Below are positions 2,250-64,000 of a DNA stretch of 64,000 nucleotides, piece after piece. Position 1 is the first letter of the stretch. Each line of letters starts with the position of its first letter. The position numbers and the translations under genes were made by a program. Below the pieces are notes generated by a model. It had not been told where the DNA came from and made no database searches. It saw nothing but the letters and a program-made list of their open reading frames with translations. The stretch is taken from assembly GCF_040183065.1 (NCBI RefSeq), contig NC_091119.1, forward strand, positions 108,576,263-108,640,262, in the 5' to 3' direction. The DNA comes from Periplaneta americana. Lineage: Eukaryota > Arthropoda > Insecta > Blattodea > Blattidae.

Positions 2250-2605
2250 GAGGAGAAGGTCCAAATATGGGCTACCAGTTTCATTTTATGTAATTTCTCG
2301 AAATCAGTACAGGAATAAAGCAGAAAATCGCTTGCAAGTAAATACTGGAAGTATAGTCCTTAATACTAAATCAATAACAAATGAATATAAATAGTAGTTT
2401 TAGCACAGAAAAAATATTTTACTGAAGTTGCAAAATTCATGATTTTAATAGAGTGGTCCAAATATGGGCTACCAATAATATTTTTTTAAACACTTTACTC
2501 AAATATTGGGAATTAACGTAAATAATAATTATATTGTTTGACATCATTTAAATGAGATTTAAGAGTTATGAAACTGTAAGATTACATATGTATTGTGTAA
2601 TCAAT

Positions 2606-4571
2606 TCAAAAAATTTCAAACTGAGGAAGAAAATATAGTTCATCATTGAAACAGCACAACTTATTTACAAAAGTCACACATGTACTGTACTCTTCTTTCT
2701 CTGCACCTGCACAGTCACTGTGTGCCCACATGCAACACATAAAACACCTTATCCACAGTTCACCAGCAGTGTCATCGGAAAACTTTCCTTCACAGAACAT
2801 ACATGCTGTATCTTCATTATCCCCTGGTTTTGTTTTCCCTACAGGACAATCAAGATCACTCTCACCACTCTCGACAAGTTCCATAGGCATACCTACATTG
2901 GGCTCAGAATCAAAATTCTCTTGTTGGGATTTTCTTGCTTTTCCTTTTCCTTTGTTTTTTTTTTTGAGACCCACTTGTGTCTTTCCTCCAGCTTCTACTT
3001 CATCAAGATTTAAACATCTCTTTGTAGACTGACGTCTGGCAGTAGTTTTATGCAGTGATTCTGAAAGCCCAGATTTGTATGGGGTTCCAGTTATAAGGCA
3101 AGAACCCGCACTCTTTGCCCCACGATTACTCGCCTTCTTTGACGCCACAGGAAGCGGTGATATATCAAAAGGGCTCACTAGAGTAGCCGTTGATGGTCCA
3201 GGAACTTGACTGGGTGTCCCGGGCTGATCTGACTTGTCAACAGGAGGCGAGATAGAAGCTAGCTGTTGAGACGAAGTCGATGGCTACGGTGCAGATTGTT
3301 GTAGAGATGCTGACATGTTGCCATATTTACTGCACGTCTTCCCTGATTCGGCTACAGCTGCTAGGAAGTCTGCCTCAGAAAATATGTTTCTGTTTGGTGG
3401 ACAGATTCCTGTCTCCTTGAAACCATTGACGGCAATTTCCCCAGTCTGAACCTTCAGATATGCCTTTCCAAAGAGTTCCATGATGTCGTAGGCTGTGACA
3501 GGTCTTTGGTTTTTACGCAGCCACAACCTTATTTCCTCACTGTAATAATTCTTCAAAGGGCCCATGAATGTTTTGTCAAGGGGCTGCATTTTATGGCTTG
3601 AGTGAGGCGGAAGGGAAATTATTGTGATATGATTAGCTCGTGCCATATCAATGACATCCAAGTTTCGAACATGACTGTAATGGCCATCCAGTATAAGGAG
3701 TACTGGAGATTCTTCTTTTGGGGCAACTTTCTCAATGAAATGGATGAGCCACTGTGCAAAAATATTACTTTGTACCCACCCAGATGGGTGGGCAAAACCA
3801 ATGGCTCCCAGTGGACTTCCTCTCATGAGCTGATCTGACATGTTCTTCCTGGGGAAAATCGCTGCTGGTGGTACAAAGTGCCCACTGGCACTCATGCAGG
3901 CAATGACGGTTATTGTAGCACCCCTTTCCGCTGAAGTCAACGCTCCTACTTGCCTCTTTCCTTTTCTTCCAATGACATACGGTATTTTGCTTTGGACTAT
4001 TGTCAGGCCTGTTTCGTCCACGTTGTATACCCGGTCCTCCGGATAATTGTGTTTATTGTAGGCTTCTAACAGAAGATCAAAAAATTTTCCTACATTCTCC
4101 CTATTAAACCCTAATGCTCGGGCAAATGAGGTGCCGCATGGTTTCCGAAGAGAGAGAGTATTCTTATGGCGTTGCAAAAAAAAGATCTACCCAAGACCTT
4201 CCTGCTTCACCTGATACGAAAGGGTGAGACAGATTGTTCTTTAACGCAATCTGAAAAGCCATTCTTCTCAGATCACCAAGAGTGCACCCAAAAAATCTTT
4301 CTTCCATAGAAAGTAGATAAGCTACAGGAAGCTTCTCCAGTTCCCCTCCAAGAAAGGGCTTTCGTCCTAATTTCGTTCTCGCAGTATCGGCAGGAGTGAC
4401 TAGTGTCTCCTTAGACAACGTTTGTAACGTTGTGCGAGGAACATGGAAATTCGATGCTTTTAGAGTTCCCATCTTCCCTTCCCTCACTGCAACTATTACT
4501 TTCTCCATGTCCTCAGCTTCCCATAATTTTCTAGTACCTTCTGGTACATATTTTGGTTTTTATCGTGGCAT
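2606..4571 (-). pseudogene. Tigger/pogo transposase pseudogene with C-terminal PHD-like finger
   Basis: Read on the minus strand, the frame starts at ATG 4571. It shows a psq-type DNA-binding N-terminus (continuing in the open frame from 4508) and then the DDE nuclease domain in the 3284-4177 frame. That fragment carries NVDETG (D54), LILDGHYSH (D164) and QPLDKTF (D201), the three acidic residues expected for a pogo-type DDD nuclease. After a proline/serine-rich linker the tail (2606-3178) has a PHD-like set: CMFC, WIRCFMCCMWAHSDC. This combination is common in arthropod Tigger elements. The gene is broken three times: a TAA at codon 4 (4560-4562), a frameshift at an eight-A run (4176-4183), and a TAG at 3284-3286 after which the frame continues. 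It is therefore not expected to be active. The AT-rich flanks and TIRs show it belongs to the element at 2250-6779. Confidence 0.85.
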
Positions 4572-5033
4572 CCTGAAAATTCAAACCGATTTTAAGTATT
4601 TCTGTCTATTAAAAATGTGGTCTGAATATGGGCTACTAGCCCGTATTCGGACCATACAAAGTAGCCCATATTTAGACCATCATGCTACTAAATTTAAAAA
4701 AAATTATAATGGTTATACGTTGATGAAAGTAAACGAAATTTGCATCGCTGTACGAAGTCCTATCTATATACTATGCAATTGATGTAACAGAATATTCGTA
4801 AGTTATGTAGAATAGTAGCAAAAATAATAAAGACTTACTGGTGAAAATTCTAGTAGCAGCCGGAACCACAAGCAACACTTTAACACAACCTACACACTTT
4901 CCCTTGTCTAGCGGACTGGAATCGGCAACAACCCCACTTTGTGACCTTCAGAGGAACCAATTCCCATATTCACTTCCAGAGTGCAGCATCATGCAGTGCC
5001 GAAAACCACCCTAGCCCGTTTTTAGACCATAGC

Positions 5034-10196: not shown

Positions 10197-10204
10197 GTAA
10201 TCAC

Positions 10205-10432
10205 TAATCACTCTTTGTTGCAGCAAAAGTATTCCTATATTTTCTTTGGGTTTGTTCGAATGTCATATCATGATATTCTTTTCGAAAAGATTACACATGA
10301 TAAAAATTTTTAGTGCCGATTTTATACTGAAATGTTTATTTCATATTTTCATACTTTGCCAAAATAAATTTCATATTTGTCAAAATTTTCTTCATATTTT
10401 TCCGGTCTCTAGTGATAACTGCGTGCTTTCAG
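10205..10432 (+). other. 3' end of intron 1, with repeat-like words and acceptor
   Basis: The stretch has repeated TTTCATATTTT words and a segment TTTTTCCGGTCTCTA ending at about 10411. Inverted, that resembles the hAT end at 8539 (TAGA.CCCGG). It is only about 20 bases from the acceptor (GTGCTTTCAG ending at 10432) and may be the end of a further related element, but no duplication was found to prove it. Confidence 0.4.
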
Positions 10433-10626
10433 ATCCCTACGTGAAGATGTACCTGCTGTACAATAACCAGCGAATAGCCAAGAAGAAGACGCATGTGAAG
10501 AAGAGGACACTGAATCCCGTGTTCAACGAGTCGTTCGTATTTGATATCCCCGTTGGCGCTGAGGGTCTGGACAACGTGAGTCTCGAGTTCCTGTTGCTCG
10601 ACTGGGATCGCGTCACGAAGAACGAG
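10433..10626 (+). CDS. Syt4: synaptotagmin exon, core of C2B domain
   Basis: The exon completes the split codon D of DPYVK and then encodes 64 residues. It contains the polybasic strand (KKKTHVKK), the [13 protein letters not shown] strand and calcium loop 3 ([11 protein letters not shown]). Four of the five usual loop aspartates of a C2B domain are present across this and the preceding exon; the fifth position is E. The acceptor is TGCTTTCAG and the donor is GAG|GTCAGT, phase 0. The DWDRVTKNE wording is what I remember for insect Syt4, and supports that class over Syt1 or Syt7. The frame is intact, so this is a functional exon. Confidence 0.92.
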
Positions 10627-10980
10627 GTCAGTCATTCGTCTTTGTAGCTAGAATGTCAATCTCCACTAGGCCTATGTCCAGTCCACATAAATCTTAATAA
10701 AACACTCAGTTAGCACTTCCCTCAGATTTTGTTTTACGAATATAGAACTAACAATATTGTCAATATTCTAACGTCTTGTTAAATCAGAAACTTTTTTATT
10801 AACAAAATAATTGACGATCATTCAATTTAGCAATATCTTAGTTTATGTAGACTTATTTAAAAAGATCGTACATCTTCCGTAGGTTCAATTATTCTGATAG
10901 AAAATGTCCTAATTGGTCAGGTATACTAATTAAGTTTGGTAGGAACGAAAATATTTAAAACATTAAAGCCTAAAGTTTGC
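10627..10980 (+). other. start of intron 2, nothing recognised
   Basis: The stretch begins with the donor GTCAGT of intron 2. It is AT-rich and I see no repeat or coding signal. Confidence 0.4.
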
Positions 10981-13394: not shown

Positions 13395-14726
13395 CGAGGG
13401 GGATCCAGGAAATAACGACTGTTTTGTTGTAATAATTAAAAAAAATATTTATTTGAAAAAAACAAAGTCTGTTACATAACTGAAGCTTCCTTTACTTCTC
13501 TACATAATCACCACCTACATTTAAACATTTGTCGTATCTGTTCACTAGCTTTAGAATTCCCGTGTTATACTCCTCTGCCGCCAGTTCATTAAGCCAGGTG
13601 TTCACTGTCTTCTTCAACTCTTCATCACTTCCAAAACGCGTACCACTCAGAAAGTCTTTCAGCTTAGTGAAAAGGTGAAAATCGCTAGGAGCAAGGTCTG
13701 GACTATAGGGCGGATGATCAAAGATTTCCCAACCGAATTGATCCAGCAATTCTCGAGTTGAAGCAGCAGTGTGCGGGCGGGCGTTGTCGTGAAGAAACAC
13801 AACTCCTCTCGAAAGCATTCCTCGCCTCTTGTTTTGGATGGCTCGCAGTAGTTTTCGTAAAGTCTCACAATAACGATTTGCATTGATCGTAGTGCCTTTT
13901 GGCATGAAATCCAGTAAAAGCACACCTTTGCGATCCCAAACGACAGTAGCCATGACTTTTTGTGTTGAGAGAGTCTGTTTGAATTTTCTCGGTTTCTTGG
14001 GTGATGAGGGACGATGCCACTGACGTGATTGGCGCTTGGTCTCTGGGGTGTTGTGAGACACCCAAGTCTCATCACCAGTCACAATTTGATCAAGAAAGGC
14101 GTCTCCATCTGTGTGATATCGCATCAAGAATGTCAATGCTGAGGCCATTCTCTGAGTTTTGTGTTGGTCACTCAGTTGCCGTGGAACCCATCGTGCACAG
14201 ATTTTGTGGTAGCCAAGGTGTTGCGACACAATTTCACCAAGCAAAGAACGAGAAATGTCAGGAAAGGCAATATGCAATTCGTCGAGTGATGTGCACCTGT
14301 CTTGCAAGATTCTGTCGTTTGCTTTAGTCTTCAGGTCTTCTGTGATGAGTGATGGGCGTCCGGGTCGAGTTTCATCGTGGACATTTGTTCGCCCATTGTT
14401 GAACATTTCGCACCATTTTCTCACGTTTCTTTCATTCATTACAGTATCACCATACACTTCTTTCAATTGCCGGTAAATTTCTGCAGGTTTCAAATGTCGG
14501 GCATTCAAAAATCGAATCACACTGCTCACCTCACAGTCGGCGGGATTATCAATCACGTCGTTCATTTTGAAGTAACACAAAATGCACAATGGCGACTTGT
14601 TGCAACCAGTACTCACAACATTATGAGAACACATGTTAAGGAAGCCAGTTGACTTTCAAACAAGGAAGGGGAGTCAGCTGCGCGGCGGGTATGCGCGAAC
14701 GGTCGTTATTTCCTGGATCCCCCTCG
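13395..14726 (-). mobile_element. full-length mariner transposon
   Basis: Inverted ends beginning CGAGGGGGATCCAGGAAATA are identical for 25 bases. They start at 13395 and end at 14726, and the element is flanked by TA (13393-13394 and 14727-14728). Length is 1332 bp, typical of mariner. The single gene inside is open from start to stop on the minus strand. It is inserted antisense in intron 2 of the synaptotagmin gene. Near-identical ends and an open frame suggest a recent insertion. Confidence 0.95.
13492..14565 (-). CDS. mariner transposase, open frame
   Basis: A 357-residue frame runs from ATG 14565; an upstream in-frame ATG at 14634 would add 23 residues, but the later one fits the family. 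The N-terminus holds paired helix-turn-helix DNA-binding regions (residues about 10-110). The diagnostic linker WVPRQL follows. The nuclease shows TGDETWV (D165), HDNARPHTA (D260) and YSPDLAPSDFHLF (D295), with 34 residues between the second and third aspartate, the D34D pattern of mariner. Usual length is about 345-355, so nothing is missing. It cuts and pastes its own element at TA sites in the nucleus. No stop or frameshift is seen. Whether it is active cannot be told from sequence. Confidence 0.95.
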   Translation of the reverse strand: MNDVIDNPADCEVSSVIRFLNARHLKPAEIYRQLKEVYGDTVMNERNVRKWCEMFNNGRTNVHDETRPGRPSLITEDLKTKANDRILQDRCTSLDELHIAFPDISRSLLGEIVSQHLGYHKICARWVPRQLSDQHKTQRMASALTFLMRYHTDGDAFLDQIVTGDETWVSHNTPETKRQSRQWHRPSSPKKPRKFKQTLSTQKVMATVVWDRKGVLLLDFMPKGTTINANRYCETLRKLLRAIQNKRRGMLSRGVVFLHDNARPHTAASTRELLDQFGWEIFDHPPYSPDLAPSDFHLFTKLKDFLSGTRFGSDEELKKTVNTWLNELAAEEYNTGILKLVNRYDKCLNVGGDYVEK

Positions 14727-28854: not shown

Positions 28855-30590
28855 TCTTAACGTGTAATAACACATACTAAATAAATATTCAATAGCAGAG
28901 GAAGAAGAAATGGAATGACATTTAAGTAGAGCGCTCAAGAAGTGTGTCTTTAAGTTAAACTCCGATAATTACTCCATAATTATGTATTATGAGCCATGAA
29001 ACTAACTTCAGCTCAAATACCGGTACCCTACACCAAGAATAATATAAATGAACTGCCAAATAACTGCTGTAATTTTCACTTCTTATAGAAATGTACCGTA
29101 CCAGTAATGCATTTTGTAACATCTGAGCTGAAATGTACAGTAGTAAAGGGTGTAAGTAAGTCATACCATAAAATTAAATTTAGAAATTTCCACGTAAGAA
29201 TCTGGAAACCTCTATAGAAGACACTCTGGAACAAAGTTACCAAGGTTACAGACTTGTGATCTTGTAAAGAGATTTCTTTTCAGCATTCGAATCGTTACAA
29301 ATATGCAAGCAATATGTCATGCAGGACACATAGGGTCTGTAGCAATGTAAAAAGTACCTCGACCTTGCATGATTGTTGTGTACATTACACTGAAATAATG
29401 AAGTTGATATATTGACTGATTATATTAACTTATTATTATGAAGAGGGTTGTACTAAGTAAAGCCCAGTTGCTAGTTCACTATAGCTATACCTGGCATACT
29501 CTGTGATATTCTTTCGTGCCATATTTACTTATTTTAAAGCAGTATTTTCTTGTAGGAATTTGTTGTGTATTTCGTAAGCTTTTCACTTATCCGTTGCAAA
29601 TAATTATAAATACAAATAGTTTTACAAGGAAACTGAGGTTAGAGTTTGACTTCAAGTCATGAGAAGAAATTTGTTAACCCACAATGGTCACATATGTAAG
29701 GATCTTCATATATATATTTTCCAGCAATGCAATTATATTAATATCTTCATAGCTTTGTTGATCATACAATATAAGTAGCTACCGGCAAATGAACTCATGC
29801 TTTGTTAACTTATAATTATTTTGATAATTATTTTGACATTATAATTCAATGACTCAGATTCTCTGAAACAGGACGAAGACACATATTTTATCAACGTTCA
29901 CCGATTAAATAACAAGACTGAAGGTTTAACAGAGAGGTAGACATAGCCATCTTGTTCGGTTAGTAGCAATCGATAAAAATAAAAATATTATGGTTCAGAT
30001 TAGAAATAGACATGGTAGCAATTTTTCATGAATTTCCCACAAACTTAATACCAAAATACCACAAATGATAAGTTGGACCCCTGCTGCGTCCCGAAATCAA
30101 TTATTTGGAGAAGTTCCTAGCAGTCAGTGTGATTCATGTGGTTTTCGGTTCATTGTGCGTATTCAAACAATATTTTAAGCAAGTTGTTTTAGATGCAATC
30201 TTTAAAAAGCATTTCACAGTAAAAAGAAGTACTGTAAGACGTGGTTTGGGGAAATGTGAAGAATAGTGTAATCGATGTATAATTCTTCTCTGTACTTTGA
30301 GTTCTGTAATATGTTACTTGAAACCTGGCTCGCACCAATCAGGATGGATACATGCCTTCATCCCATGTAATTTGCAGTCAATATTATCGCACTACCAAAA
30401 CCGGTAGGCCTAACATTTCCTTAGAGAATATTAACTCGAAACCACAACTTCAAAGTGTTAGACTTCAGATCAGTCCCTTCTGAATTTCAAAATGAATCTT
30501 TTAATTTGCAAGTCAAAATCGGCATTAATATGCTAATAATGTTACAGTATACCAACAAATTGAATTTAATTTCAACAGTAGGGCCTAGTA
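28855..30590 (+). other. no recognised feature
   Basis: No coding domain or repeat was recognised in this AT-rich stretch. Confidence 0.3.
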
Positions 30591-53199: not shown

Positions 53200-53964
53200 T
53201 ACTACACCCCCAAATTAAATTTGCATCTCGTGAATGCAAGAGATGAGTGCTAGTAGCTCGTTGTTAGTAGACTATACAACTCGATTCTGCGTTAATGGCC
53301 CCTGTCCTTGGTTGTTTGGCTAGTAAGTGAGCTATATGTTGCATCATAAGAAAGAAATTTAATCACAAATGTGCATAGGAGGGGAAGAGGAAAGAGGAAG
53401 AATGAAAATAATATCTATGCTCGAAGCTGAGGGACACTCATGTAAAGAAAATATAAGTCATCATGACATTGTTTAGTCAACAGATGTAGTGGTTAGTATC
53501 GCGACGTGTGGAAGAATATTGGGCCGTAAGAATAAAGTTGAGCATATCCTTTTACTCCACTATTTTTAAGGATGTGCTTCAGATTTTAATAATAAAATGC
53601 AGAGCACAACCTTCTCCTCCTGATGACGCAATAGGAAAAGAGCACTTGCTTCACAGGAAGAAGCATTTGCTTCGAGCGGAACCTTTTGCTTCAAAATTAG
53701 AAAAAATGTATGAATAAAGTGAAGCATATCCTTCGATTCAGAAGCATATCCTTCTAAAAAGTGAAGTCTGGTCAGGAGCAGACTCATCTCTGTGATGGTT
53801 GAATTACCAGTCGCATTACGACATGAAAAGTACTACAAATTATGGTGGTGTGCTGTTAGGGAGCAGTATAAGAGTTTATGTACACTTAATGAAGAAAATG
53901 TCCTATGGATTAATCCCATTTTCTGGAAGAAACACAGGGGAGAAGAGGAGGGGCTTTCTCGGAA

Positions 53965-55622: not shown

Positions 55623-56894
55623 CTGCATTGATATAATTTTTCTACTCGTATTTTATTGATGCACACAGATTAACCCAGAAACTTTAATCAACTATCATTA
55701 TTTCTCACACTCATAGTAGGCACAATTATATTCAATAATGCTATAATGACCACTGCAAAGACGCATGTTAGGAAGAATTTATTAGTATGCCGAATTTTCA
55801 TCGAAATATTTGATCATTTTCTGAAATGCTGTCTCTTTTTCTTTTTCCTTTGCACTTCTGGAACTTGTGATTTTTTTTCTAATATTCTGGGATGTGTAGC
55901 AAAAAATATCATTGTACTTTCAAGGGCGCACAGCTACCGCCGTCTGAATCAGAAGATCCAGTTTTAACCACGCGGAATCTTTACCTAGTTGTGATTGAAA
56001 TAAGTGTGGTTTATTAGCATCAGAAGGAAAGTTGCTGAGTCATTGGGAAGCCCGCCGTTGCTGCTTATCACGTTCCTTTATGAAACCGAACACCCGCACT
56101 CAGTTGATAAAGAGCGCCGACAAATACACAGTATTGCAACATGAAACGTCACAACAACTTTTAAGAGCACATGCTTCTGTCTTAGAAGCAAAAGGTTGAA
56201 GGATAAGGTAGAGGTTATTCTTACAATTCGAAGCATATGCTCATACTTCAACCTCTTGCTTCGAAGCATAACCTTATACTTCAACCTCATGCTTCGAAGG
56301 AAATCCTTCAGGTTTATTCATATGGCCCATTGTGTTTTAAGACAGAGTATACCAAGAAGGAAGTGTTAGGTGTTATGACTGCGCTGCCTGACCTGTGTGA
56401 CCCAGCCCAACAGTAGTGATGAGTAACTCAATCTTAGTCTATCTACTTACTTTTTGCAGGGGCCAAAATCCCTGAATCAAGCTATACAACCTACAGTTTC
56501 GTCTGTGAGTGAGGTCATGTTACAAGAGATAATGCAATGAGTGAAAGTAATGTATATGTGTGTAAGAAATACAGTGCATAATATTAATATTAGTTGAGGC
56601 ATACCTCATTCCAATAATTAACTATACAATATTGAGTATCCACTGTATGTGAAGAAGATCTGAAATTGGATAAAATAGCCTATCAAAATTAACGATTACT
56701 GCACTTCACATGGGTACAACACTTTCAGCACTTACATGTGTATTCACCACTATCTCACGACAGTTGGCACGAACAGTAAACACCTCTTTATCAGCTTAGT
56801 ATTTACTCATAGGTTGCAAAGGCGAGAGAGGGAACGGTGATTCACATTCTTTCTGGACACAGATTTAACTTGGAAGTGTAGTATATTTATTATC

Positions 56895-59737: not shown

Positions 59738-59753
59738 TACTGGGTCATTCCAT

Positions 59754-60495
59754 GGTAACTCATGTTACAATTGGACACTAATCTGTGGATGTAAACATTA
59801 GTAACTCAAATATTCTTACACAACATTTTTTCTTCATTAGCACATTAAAACCTCTTAAGCTTAATAAACATTTACATATAAAGTGAAAGTTAAATTTTCA
59901 GCAAACAGATATAAAAATAATTATAATAGATCGGTAACTCACGTTACAATTCTTGGACAACAATTTCAACACACTCTTCAATTCGTCAAATTTCTGCTCT
60001 GTTAAGCATAGAATAAACATGACTTTTAAACAGTATTATGAACACAAGGTCAGTGTACAAGGAGAAAACGTCAAAATTTAATTTAGCAAATATAACTGTC
60101 CGAAAATAAACAAAATTTGTGGTAACTCATGTTACTTCAAGGTAACTCATGTTACACAGCCAACTAAAATTTGAAATGACCTCGATCATTAACAGGATTT
60201 ATCACTTTCAATACATGTTTCTTTAGTTAAATATTGCGTACATGGATACAGTAATAATTATAATAGATTGGTACCGTAACTCACTTTACAATTCTTGGAC
60301 AACACTTTCAACACATTCTTCAATTTAACAAATTTCTTCTCTGTTAAGCATGGAATAAACATTACTTTTAACAGCATTATGAAAACAAGGTCAGTATACA
60401 AGGAGAAAATGTCTAAATTTAATTTAGCAAAAATGACTGTCAAAAAATAAACAAAATTTGTGGTAACTCATGTTCCTTGGAAGTAACTCACGTTA
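59754..60495. repeat. array of GTAAC-N4-GTTAC palindromes, 3' side of the element
   Basis: Copies or near-copies of GGTAACTCATGTTAC occur at about 59754, 59935, 60121, 60139, 60274 (diverged), 60462 and 60480. GTAAC and GTTAC are reverse complements separated by four bases, so each is an imperfect palindrome. Further copies lie at about 62541 and 62708 on the other side of the gene. The position at both ends is typical of transposase-binding sites. Confidence 0.85.
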
Positions 60496-60573
60496 CGCAG
60501 TCTTCTAAAATTTGAAATGTCCTCGAGCATTAACAATAGTTGGTGGATTTATCACTGAACTTCTACCCAGTCA

Positions 60574-62362
60574 TCAACTTTTAAGTTTTTCCTTAATTCC
60601 TACTTCTTCCTCATTCTTGTCAGGACTATCTTTTGCCTGTAGAAACTGTTTAGTTATGGTATATCCAATAATATTGTCATCTACAACGTTTATACAGTGC
60701 ATGCTTGCAATACCCACTAATGTTTTGGCATCCTTAATAACCGATGTTAACTGCAAGCATTGTTTCGCTGAGAAATCTCTTCGTTAGTAACTTCTATTAC
60801 ATTTATTTTAGACAATGGATTTGTGGCTTTTACAAACTCTGATGCATTAGACACTAAACATTTTCTTCTCTTTACTGCTTCCCATACTTGTCGCTTTATG
60901 GAACCTCCAATTCCATCAACAGATCCCTTGCCATGTGACGTGGCGAAGTAATTCCATATGATCTTTTTGCCATGTTTCTTTTCCAGAATTTTGATGGATT
61001 CAGCAATATATTTATTTTTGAATTGAGAACTTGGACCATCAGACCATATGTGCACCTCTTGAACAGATTTTACTGACTTTTCTTCAAGTAAACGATCCAT
61101 ATAAGTAACAACAGTATTTTTAGTGTGATCAATGTTGTCTGATGCTAGGACATATGAATGAATATCCTCTGAATGCCAAATAGCAGCAGTGAAAAGACTA
61201 ATCTGATTCTGTTGCCAGTGTGCACTTTGAATTTCATCCTGCAACATGCATGTGTAATTCTCAGAAAAATCCACTTGAATTAAAGCCATATCATGTTGAG
61301 ATAAGACAGTAGTTTTCTCTTCCTGGTAAGTCTTTGCTTGTTCCCTTTTGATGTAGCAGTGCTGTAGAAACTGGGGTCCAATAGCACAAATATATTCAAT
61401 CAGCTCTTGAATAGTTCCTTCTTCCTGTACCTTCGCAAGTCTACCATCACATTCTTTCCACACAAACCATGATGCTTCTACTGTATCATCTTCACAATTT
61501 TCCTGCAATACTGTGTTCATTAAACTTTTACATATTTCACATTTTCCCATCCAACATTTTTCTGTAGCATTATTGCACAGAAAAAATGCAGGCAAACTGG
61601 CTGTATATTCAGGAAATTTTGGCACTGACTTATGAAAAGCATTTATTGCACCGATGAAATTTTCATGGTACCTACAAAGACACACATTTTGGGGAAGTTT
61701 GTTACTTAACATTACATTTTTTGGGCGAAGCTCAGCAAACTTGCTTTTTCCAACCATTGGTCCATTCTCATTACAAAATATTGCATGTGCTTCTCTTACT
61801 GGAAACAGTAAATGTCGAATTCGGAGCTTGACCTTCCCTTCTTCACTTTTGACAGATACAGCGTCTTTTCTCCCTGGGGCTTGTCGACTTATATCATCCC
61901 TCAAATAAAATTCACTGACTGCTTTTACAACGGTGGGGCTGAGAGCAGACATAGTAGGCTTACTTCGTTTATCTTTAATTGGTTCAATATTGTCTGCATA
62001 TAATTTTCTAATAACTGCACACTTCTTTCTTGGGGAGTTAGGTAGTCCTCGCCTCACTCTTGCTGCAGCTTTTCCTAAACTTTAAGATGACTTAGATGGT
62101 GGTGTATGTTCTGCCATTTCTTTGAGAGTCTTGTGATTTTGTTCCCTTTCTTGTTTAAGCCTTCTATATTTCGCAACTCTTTCCCTGACACTAGCTTTCC
62201 TTTCATTGTGAATTCTGTTCTGGATGTGTTTTGGCAATCTCTGCTCTTTTTCCCTACTTTTTTCACAATTTCTTTATGCTTTTTCTTATACTCTTCATAG
62301 TTTCCTTCTTCTTTCAACTTCTGTCTTCTCTTCCTCATTTTTTCAGCTGCTGTCAAAGACAT
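60574..62362 (-). pseudogene. DDE-type transposase, Sola-like, two frameshifts
   Basis: An N-terminal lysine-rich piece (62362 to 62075, RKRRQKLKEEGNYEEYKKKH) leads, after a one-step frameshift near 62080, to SLGKAAARVRRGLPNSPRKK and the main 436-codon frame (62057 to 60747). Main-frame landmarks: a cysteine cluster CNNATEKCWMGKCEIC (about 161-176), QVDFSENYTC (D263), IWSDGPSSQFKNKY (D340) and FATSHGKGSVDGIGG (D381), which are the likely catalytic acids. A last piece follows in another frame (60756 to 60574). The protein type recurs as unnamed arthropod and cnidarian transposon proteins, as far as I recall. With only two small breaks, an intact relative may exist in the genome, or assembly errors may be the cause. 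Confidence 0.75.
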
Positions 62363-63194
62363 CTAGAAAAAAAGATCACAAAACAAAGTCATAATGAAAT
62401 TCAACAAAATTACCTAACTTATCTTCTGAATTTGATACATTACAACGAATTTATAAACATTTCATAGTACTTTATAGAAATTAATATATTTATGACAGAC
62501 TGACTACTTTAGATACAATGTATGTTTTTACGGTATTATTGGTAACTCACGTTACATGATTTAATAATTATGTTACATTGTTCGTGCTTCTTACCAGAAT
62601 TTTTGTGATAAATGTTTTAATTAATCATAAAGTCAGTAAGCAAAATATGAAATATGAACCTTTTCTTCTTGTTAAAAAGGGCAGAATTCTAAAAATATGG
62701 TAATTTGGTAACTCATGTTACATATGAGAGGTTATGTTTAAAAGCATATAATTAAAGGGGAAAATATTAAATAAGAAATAAAATAATTGTAGCACCATTA
62801 AGAGAAGTCATAACATTTCAATTTTAAATGTACAAAATGTGTCATTTATTATAAAAATAAGCATTTATCTTACCTTGAAATCAGTGAATATTTTTGTCTG
62901 AAACTCTTCTGCAGGTTGATTTTAACAAAGTAGCTGCCATATTCAAACCACAAATTGGAGGGAAAGAATACAGTGCTGACAATGAACTACAATAAATCAA
63001 TAATGAAACAAAACAGAAATAAACTTCCCTCTTATGTCCACATTTTCATGGAATTGCCCTACTAAAAAAATGACTTTTAAACATAATGAGTCAAATATTC
63101 CTTCAGAATTATTTACTAGTAGTGGTGTAATTATTCATAGTAATTATTGCAATTACAGTACATATTACAGAAACGTGATCCTATGAATTCCAGT

Positions 63195-63454: not shown

Positions 63455-64000
63455 CATTTTCATTTCATTCAGAGTTCTGCCCAAGGGCAAGTCTTTCACT
63501 GCAAACCCAGTTTTCTTCAATCCTTCCTATTTTCTGCCTTCCTCTTTGTCTCCGCACATGATTCATATATCTTAATGTCGTCTATGATCTGATATCTTCT
63601 TCTACCCCAAACTCTTCTCCCATTCACCATTCCTTCCAGTGCATCCTTCAGTAGGCAGTTTCTTCTTAGTCAGCGATCTAGCCAATTACTTTTCCTCTTC
63701 CTGATCAGTTTCAGCATCGTTCTTTCTTCACCCACTCTTTCCAACATAGCTTCATTTCTTATTCTGTCTGTCCACTTCATACATTCCATTCTTCTCCATA
63801 TCCACATTTCAAATGCTTCTATTCGCTTCTCTTTGCTTCGTCGTAATGTCCACGTTTCTGCCCCATACAATGCCACACTCCATACAAAGCACTTCACTAG
63901 TCTCTTCCTTAGTTCTTTTTTCAGAGATCAGCAGAAAATGCTCCTTTTTCTATTAAAAGATTCTTTGGTCATTGCTATTCTCCTTTTGACTTCCTGGCAG
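63455..64000 (-). pseudogene. LINE-X reverse-transcriptase C-terminal part, runs off the window
   Basis: Minus-strand translation gives KCFVWSVALYGAETWTLRRS, then RIEAFEMWIWRRMECMKWTD and RKRKSNWLDR, then (after a stop) LRRNCLLKDALEGMVNGR. Upstream at the window edge it reads EVKRRIAMTKESFNRKR. This matches the + strand copy at 48242-49108. The 3' end at about 63455-63480 has the same GGGCAGAACTCT-like tail and (AATG) word. Stops show it is defective in part. Confidence 0.82.

Follow-up and report, generated by a model that had tools for sequence, protein, structure and literature searches.

The stretch of DNA analysed here, referred to as the window, comprises 64,000 nucleotides (nt) of the Periplaneta americana genome (NCBI RefSeq assembly GCF_040183065.1, contig NC_091119.1, positions 108,576,263 to 108,640,262 of the forward strand). 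It contains a Sola-like DNA transposon at 59742-63059, and the non-coding ends of this element carry an array of short repeated sites. An initial annotation of the sequence had placed the element at these coordinates, between 4-bp TACT target site duplications (TSDs) and with 13-bp ends. All of this was recovered, with 2 mismatches over 13 bp between the terminal inverted repeats (TIRs) GGGTCATTCCATG and GGGCAATTCCATG. The features of the element, in window positions, are the following.

59738..59741, no strand: left TSD copy TACT, from the sequence
59742..59754, plus strand: left TIR GGGTCATTCCATG, 13 bp
59755..59768, plus strand: site L1 GTAACTCATGTTAC, abutting the left TIR, at nt 14 of the element
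59888..60194, plus strand: first copy of a ~340-bp block with L2-L4, from direct repeats D1, D2 and D7
59934..59947, plus strand: site L2 GTAACTCACGTTAC, at nt 193
60122..60135, plus strand: site L3 GTAACTCATGTTAC, at nt 381
60142..60155, plus strand: site L4 GTAACTCATGTTAC, at nt 401, 20 bp past L3
60225..60535, plus strand: second copy of the ~340-bp block, from direct repeats
60276..60289, plus strand: duplicated site L2' GTAACTCACTTTAC, one mismatch
60463..60476, plus strand: duplicated site L3' GTAACTCATGTTCC, one mismatch
60483..60496, plus strand: duplicated site L4' GTAACTCACGTTAC
60747..62081, minus strand: main open frame of the transposase, with the motifs QVDFSENY, WSDGPSSQFKN and SHGKGSVDGIGG and three aspartates conserved in relatives
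62075..62362, minus strand: basic N-terminal portion of the transposase, read in a different frame, MSLTAAEKMRKRRQKL...
62542..62555, plus strand: site R1 GTAACTCACGTTAC, starting 518 bp before the right end
62708..62721, plus strand: site R2 GTAACTCATGTTAC, starting 352 bp before the right end
63047..63059, minus strand: right TIR (GGGCAATTCCATG read inwards), no site adjoining
63060..63063, no strand: right TSD copy TACT, from the sequence

The element holds nine sites of the form GTAACTCAYGTTAC, seven of them exact and two differing at one base; each lies on the plus strand and has the internal spacer TCAY. The initial annotation had reported at least eight copies of a GTAAC-N4-GTTAC motif in both non-coding flanks, one of them beside the left end. 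The count holds and the motif is present, but the formula is too loose, because orientation and spacer are the same in all nine. Tandem motif pairs and duplication of a whole block had also been described, and direct-repeat comparison agrees: three of the nine sites stem from the ~340-bp duplication of the L2-L4 block, which among the families examined occurs only in the window's own (family A), including the copies L138, L144/L152 and L148. In the rest of the window every GTAACTCAYGTTAC match has at least three mismatches. The looser pattern GTAACNNNNGTTAC with at most one mismatch matches the window 11 times where 1.76 matches are expected, and 0 of 100 shuffles reach 11; two of the 11 (at 29236 and 60787) are not of the TCAY type. 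The commonest repeated 14-mer has nine copies in the element; at 40 randomly chosen places in the remaining window sequence it has two to five, the lone five-copy case being another transposon.

The transposase gene is frame-shifted and split over two minus-strand open reading frames, and its main frame stops short of a C-terminal region found in the longest relatives; the earlier description of the gene as nearly whole therefore does not stand. That region is present in the longer relatives L170, L171 and L185, where in L185 it gives a weak match to SGF29_Tudor (E 0.048, below the cut-off). Three aspartates, D376, D452 and D494 (L150 numbering), are conserved at 90-100% in 21 proteins. A Pfam search of the transposases returned no family above its cut-off.

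Searching the host genome (3.23 Gb, 91 contigs) with the window transposase gave at least 98 matches including the window's own, at 100% to 31% identity to the window protein, with 96 of 4670 first-look candidates scored. The sample used below consists of 44 distinct elements, that is, loci L137-L191 minus 11 loci that repeat another element. Read by eye across the site lists, 41 of the 44 have at least two sites of their family motif at the canonical spacing. Arrays were also located in L169, L178, L182 and L188 despite low-complexity matches, decay or insertion, and only part of the array is kept in L175, L154 and L188. In L189, L190 and L191 we found neither an array nor recognisable ends, and these three form a separate clade on the transposase tree (support 100/100, with a program warning of long branches). 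Array-bearing proteins whose N-terminus is complete have a basic N-terminal segment; L189-L191 lack it and have a different N-terminal region. Outside the host, viral contigs yielded no relative by protein search, peptide-motif DNA pattern, motif pair or alignment; a tblastn search with the window protein, covering 127 loci (the 7 peptide-motif matches together with matches to the generic N4 pattern, which number at least 120), reached a best E value of 0.46. Prokaryote genomes gave no match to the motif pair and one to the peptide motif (L128), and no relative was found in phages.

Both ends could be located in 26 elements (in a first set by TIR similarity alone, in a second set ranked by TSD agreement), and 23 of these have an exact 4-bp TSD. 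A de novo search for the commonest repeated 14-mer in the outer 800 and 700 bp, allowing at most two mismatches and without supplying the motif, found five to nine copies in all 26, against three to five in the best of eight dinucleotide shuffles of each. The count exceeded the shuffle best in every single element, and the positions recur. In relatives down to 31% transposase identity the canonical left sites lie at nt ~14, 193, 381 and 402, and the canonical right sites start ~540 and ~374 bp from the element end. L1 starts at nt 13-16 in 26/26 elements, L1-L2 measures 166-181 bp in 25/26, L2-L3 185-190 bp in 24/26 and L3-L4 20-23 bp in all 22 in which both were found. On the right, a forward R1 stands 162-169 bp from R2 in 15/15 elements, and R2 lies 371-376 bp from the end in 20/26. 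The L1-L2 interval falls into classes of 166-168, 178-181 and 189 bp (the last in L169), with two copies at 175 and 176. In the sister copy L138, R1 starts 540 bp and R2 374 bp from the right end; the window copy has 22 bp less between its own R2 and right end. Motif number and spacing are hence conserved across family members, at near-constant intervals. The array is not a mere local duplication, an explanation rejected in view of the homologous array in the relatives, and it is absent from none of the 26 elements.

Families F and K (L163, L184, L185, L186) have extra right sites, inverted near 527 and 549 bp from the end and direct near 562-574.

The lengths of the spacers are kept, their sequences hardly at all. 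Among 13 family representatives, at 96 to 31% identity to the window protein, the standard deviations (SDs) of the array intervals range from 0.8 to 5.3 bp, with R2-end at 373.5 +/- 1.4 bp and L2-L3 at 187.4 +/- 1.6 bp. The distances between array and gene, both non-coding, vary far more: 228 +/- 161 bp separate L4 from the stop codon (eight families, range 15 to 461), and 131 +/- 81 bp separate the first ATG from the right site closest to it (six families, 34 to 232, family D being excluded for its broken N-terminus). Between seven groups (66 pairs) spacer identity is 0.61-0.63 against 0.60-0.61 for shuffled partners, an excess of 0.003-0.014; the same comparison gives 0.78 against 0.525 for the TIRs and 0.71 against 0.56 for the L1 sites. 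A hidden site in the right spacer was looked for and rejected, the best candidates matching at 8-10 of 14-15 positions, against 7-10 in two left-end control stretches. The mean spacings correspond to 16.9, 17.9, 2.1 and 15.8 helical turns at 10.5 bp, and R2-end to 35.6 turns, a helical phasing that is suggestive.

Positions are thus shared between families, and the sequence of the sites is specific to each of them. Examples of the 15-base site are GTAACTCAYGTTACA for the window's family, GTCACTCACATTACA for D, GTAACAAACGTTACA for K and GTGACCTACACGACA for N; that of family P, GTCACGTACGGGACA, is the common form of four sites. Across 11 families (not counting I and J, whose sites have 14 bases), the mean difference is 0.98 of 15 positions for sites of one element (412 pairs) and 4.14 for sites of different families (8464 pairs), and on the transposase tree the families cluster with their motif. 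Sixteen family motifs, read by eye from the site lists and aligned with a one-base gap in the three 14-base motifs, share the skeleton GTNACNNAY(N)NNACA: G1, T2, A4, A13, C14 and A15 are present in 16/16, C5 in 15, A8 in 14 and C9 in 13. The site is directional because of these constant skeleton positions. Palindromy is not a general feature. The arms pair 5/5 in three of the 16 motifs and 2/5 in three others, and families G and K alone have perfect palindromes outside the window's family. Beyond the constant GT...AC, 26 of 48 inner arm positions pair, against 22.9 when the arms are re-dealt among families; 26 is reached in 9.4% of 5000 shuffles. The regular palindromes had been taken as a sign of a dimeric DNA-binding protein, and this argument is not supported, as inverted half-sites are not kept across the 16 family motifs.

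We interpret the motifs as candidate binding sites of the element's own transposase, held at a fixed geometry and building an asymmetric end complex, and give this reading, which is drawn from sequence comparison, a probability of roughly 0.75. The transposase would bind six sites, four on the left and two on the right, and the fixed distances would let it fold or loop two unequal ends into one complex before the TIRs are cut. Near-integral helical spacings would put the sites on one face of the DNA. The basic N-terminal region may be the reader of the sites; it is the best candidate, since the clade in which it is missing yielded no array. The skeleton positions would be contacted in all families, with the variable positions 3, 6, 7 and 10-12 keeping coexisting families apart. 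Under the transposase's own evolution the sites of a family would change together and their places stay. R1 and R2 of the window's element are located upstream of the transposase gene, 180 and 346 bp before its first ATG, and binding there could regulate the gene too. The initial annotation had proposed the transposase or a host regulator acting through a multi-site complex; the array is conserved in number and spacing, and its most likely binder is the transposase.

More tentatively, and at somewhat less than even odds, this eukaryotic lineage might identify its ends by their geometry together with a password. Six sites of 14-15 bp, most of them directional, would be placed to within a few bp by nearly sequence-free spacers of nucleosome-like length; each would combine a constant skeleton, GTNACNNAYNNNACA, with a family code that is rewritten in all copies at once and leaves the many families coexisting in the genome orthogonal.

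Several observations weigh against transposase binding at a fixed geometry. All relatives come from a single host genome, and searches of Pfam and PDB gave no match naming a DNA-binding domain. Spacer identity slightly exceeds the shuffled level (0.628 against 0.614 for L2-L3, 0.623 against 0.612 for R2-end). The geometry is broken in single copies, with R2-end distances of 284, 352, 353, 359 and 379 bp and one copy without R2, and L1-L2 is 100 bp in L183; L179 is also among the exceptions, and such copies may be decayed. Nor is the geometry universal, because families F, H, J and K and the G copy L176 have an inverted R1 near 528 in place of a direct one near 540, and no R1 was found in the G copy L171. 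Finally, motif and family do not correspond one to one. The pairs of the window motif in themselves favour the fixed spacing: they occur 20 times in the genome at 160-190 bp, against none for the reversed control and none in the whole genome at 214-244 bp. Ten of the 20 sit in family A copies, and the other ten, at nine other loci, are without a transposase match in the incomplete list of at least 98. Many lone matches to the motif are unrelated: of eight sampled places none is a family A element, and four (L130-L133) are members of a different repeat family that carries just one site.

Two of the nine extra pair loci were examined. L193 is a further left end, with GGGTCATTCCACA, then a site at nt 14, a second 169 bp beyond it and a third, with one mismatch, another 199 bp beyond the second. 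L192 has a pair 171 bp apart and no element end within the 901 bp examined. At L134, 1490-1820, a window-type site stands beside both ends in inverted orientation with TGAA on each side (by eye); this short element shares its ends with L193 and is possibly a non-autonomous derivative related to it.

The alternative that survives best is a chromatin ruler, in which the sites are kept in the linkers between positioned nucleosomes and the transposase recognises its ends in chromatin. Spacings of ~166-190 bp resemble nucleosome repeat lengths: L2-L3 is 187.4 bp, L1-L2 mostly 178-181, R1-R2 166, and R2-end, at 373.5 bp, is ~2 x 187. Spacers that keep their length with little or no common sequence, and a right spacer that holds no weak site, also speak for it. 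The numbers fit this account about as well as they fit folding by the transposase. However, R1-R2 and the 166-168 class of L1-L2 are short for a full nucleosome repeat, the L3-L4 pair is only 20-23 bp apart, and looping of naked DNA accounts for the same lengths. We consider the chromatin ruler unlikely, though ahead of the remaining alternatives.

It is improbable that the sites are solely operators at which the transposase acts on its own promoter, with transposition needing only the TIRs. The position of R1 and R2 upstream of the window gene agrees with autoregulation, but four of the six sites lie at the far, downstream end, where L1 abuts the TIR, and the distance from R2 to the element end has an SD of 1.4 while the gap between first ATG and nearest right site runs between 34 and 232 bp across six families.

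Capture of binding sites for a host transcription factor or repressor is very improbable: the window's exact motif does occur 297 times in the genome, also outside these elements, against 56 for its reversed control, but a host regulator is disfavoured because 16 site versions occupy the same places across related elements within a single genome and group by the transposase tree. Equally little can be said for passive inheritance of sites and spacing as unconstrained remnants of ancestral sequence or of a local duplication such as that of the L2-L4 block in the window's family, since spacer sequences are near the shuffled level while their lengths stay within an SD of 1-5 bp and the gaps between array and gene vary with SDs of 81-161, and since in four family A copies 3/21 canonical sites are imperfect against 9/12 in the duplicated block, a comparison weakened by the shared ancestry of the copies.

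The window holds other mobile and host sequences. The region 2258-4678 holds a pogo/Tigger-like transposase on the minus strand (Pfam DDE_1 at 3287-4186, HTH_psq at 4167-4559). It is flanked by a GGTCCAAATATGGG-like motif, which stands at 2258 and 2455 on one side and, on the other, at 4619 and, in minus orientation, at 4640 and 4665, five matches against 0.25 expected. An open mariner-type transposase frame of 387 amino acids (aa) occupies 13495-14655 on the minus strand (Transposase_1, HTH_48), and a similar-looking 387-aa frame, judged by eye, interrupts the related Sola-like element L188. A C2-domain exon at 10201-10644 (Pfam PF00168, 8.8e-16) probably belongs to a host gene, presumably of the synaptotagmin type. 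GAAGCAWWTGCTTC-like palindromes occur four times within 95 bp (53660-53754) and twice near 56.2 kb (56230-56309), six against 1.0 expected. At 63593-64000 there is a 75-aa minus-strand frame (63670-63897) without a Pfam match, which to our eye resembles the end of a LINE reverse transcriptase.

Sola elements are defined by a DDD transposase unlike those of other families. Membership in Sola (Sola2) is plausible here, judged by features rather than by comparison with a Sola reference sequence: the TSD is 4 bp (exact in 23/26), the 13-bp TIRs are of the GGGTCATTCCATG type, and the three conserved aspartates are in line with DDD, which agrees with the earlier label of Sola-like as far as such features go. 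Sola2-type elements of Dictyostelium fasciculatum likewise have 4-bp target duplications and short TIRs of 12-13 bp (PMC3627910). An array of this kind is absent from the Sola accounts in the extracts of PMC3627910 and PMC10294476. Among the records listed, titles and the opening lines of abstracts on subterminal repeats or palindromes in Sola and Sola2 describe none either, with subscription papers and Repbase outside that scope.

Repeated sites in both non-coding ends, kept in relatives (26/26), place the element among transposons with multi-site subterminal-repeat ends. Multiple subterminal repeats are found in the CACTA element Spm, and in Sleeping Beauty the distance between inner and outer repeat is close to 165 bp. 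Tn7-like and I-F3 CRISPR-associated transposons likewise have asymmetric ends, in which the placement of several transposase sites matters, and relatives fail to mobilise one another's ends (PMC13370975, preprint). These are prokaryotic and have three plus three 20-bp sites (PMC13370975), whereas the sites described here measure 14-15 bp and extend over about 400 and 540 bp, with none at the right tip. Sleeping Beauty also has paired transposase sites at each end, all four of which are required, in an ordered assembly aided by DNA bending (PMC7827188); its ends are inverted with two sites each, unlike the four and two, mostly in the same direction, found here. The hAT element Hermes resembles the present element in its multiple subterminal repeats, and its left end is bound asymmetrically through BED domains, but the extract cited describes no array whose long sites are locked in their distances and change in concert from family to family (PMC10368747). 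In the P element, internal transposase sites are likewise placed at unequal distances from the two TIRs; these are 10-bp sites near the TIRs (9 and 21 bp), with 31-bp TIRs and 8-bp duplications (PMC7776569). Multi-site asymmetric ends are a type already known from Tn7-like transposons, Hermes and the P element, and the novelty of the array for Sola in print is not established.

A natural set of transposases, each with its own matching site, would make a rich resource. With sixteen versions of the motif present in a single genome, one can ask what residues recognise what bases, and what keeps related transposons from mobilising one another. The length-locked, nearly sequence-free spacers offer a direct test of looped DNA versus chromatin in end complexes.

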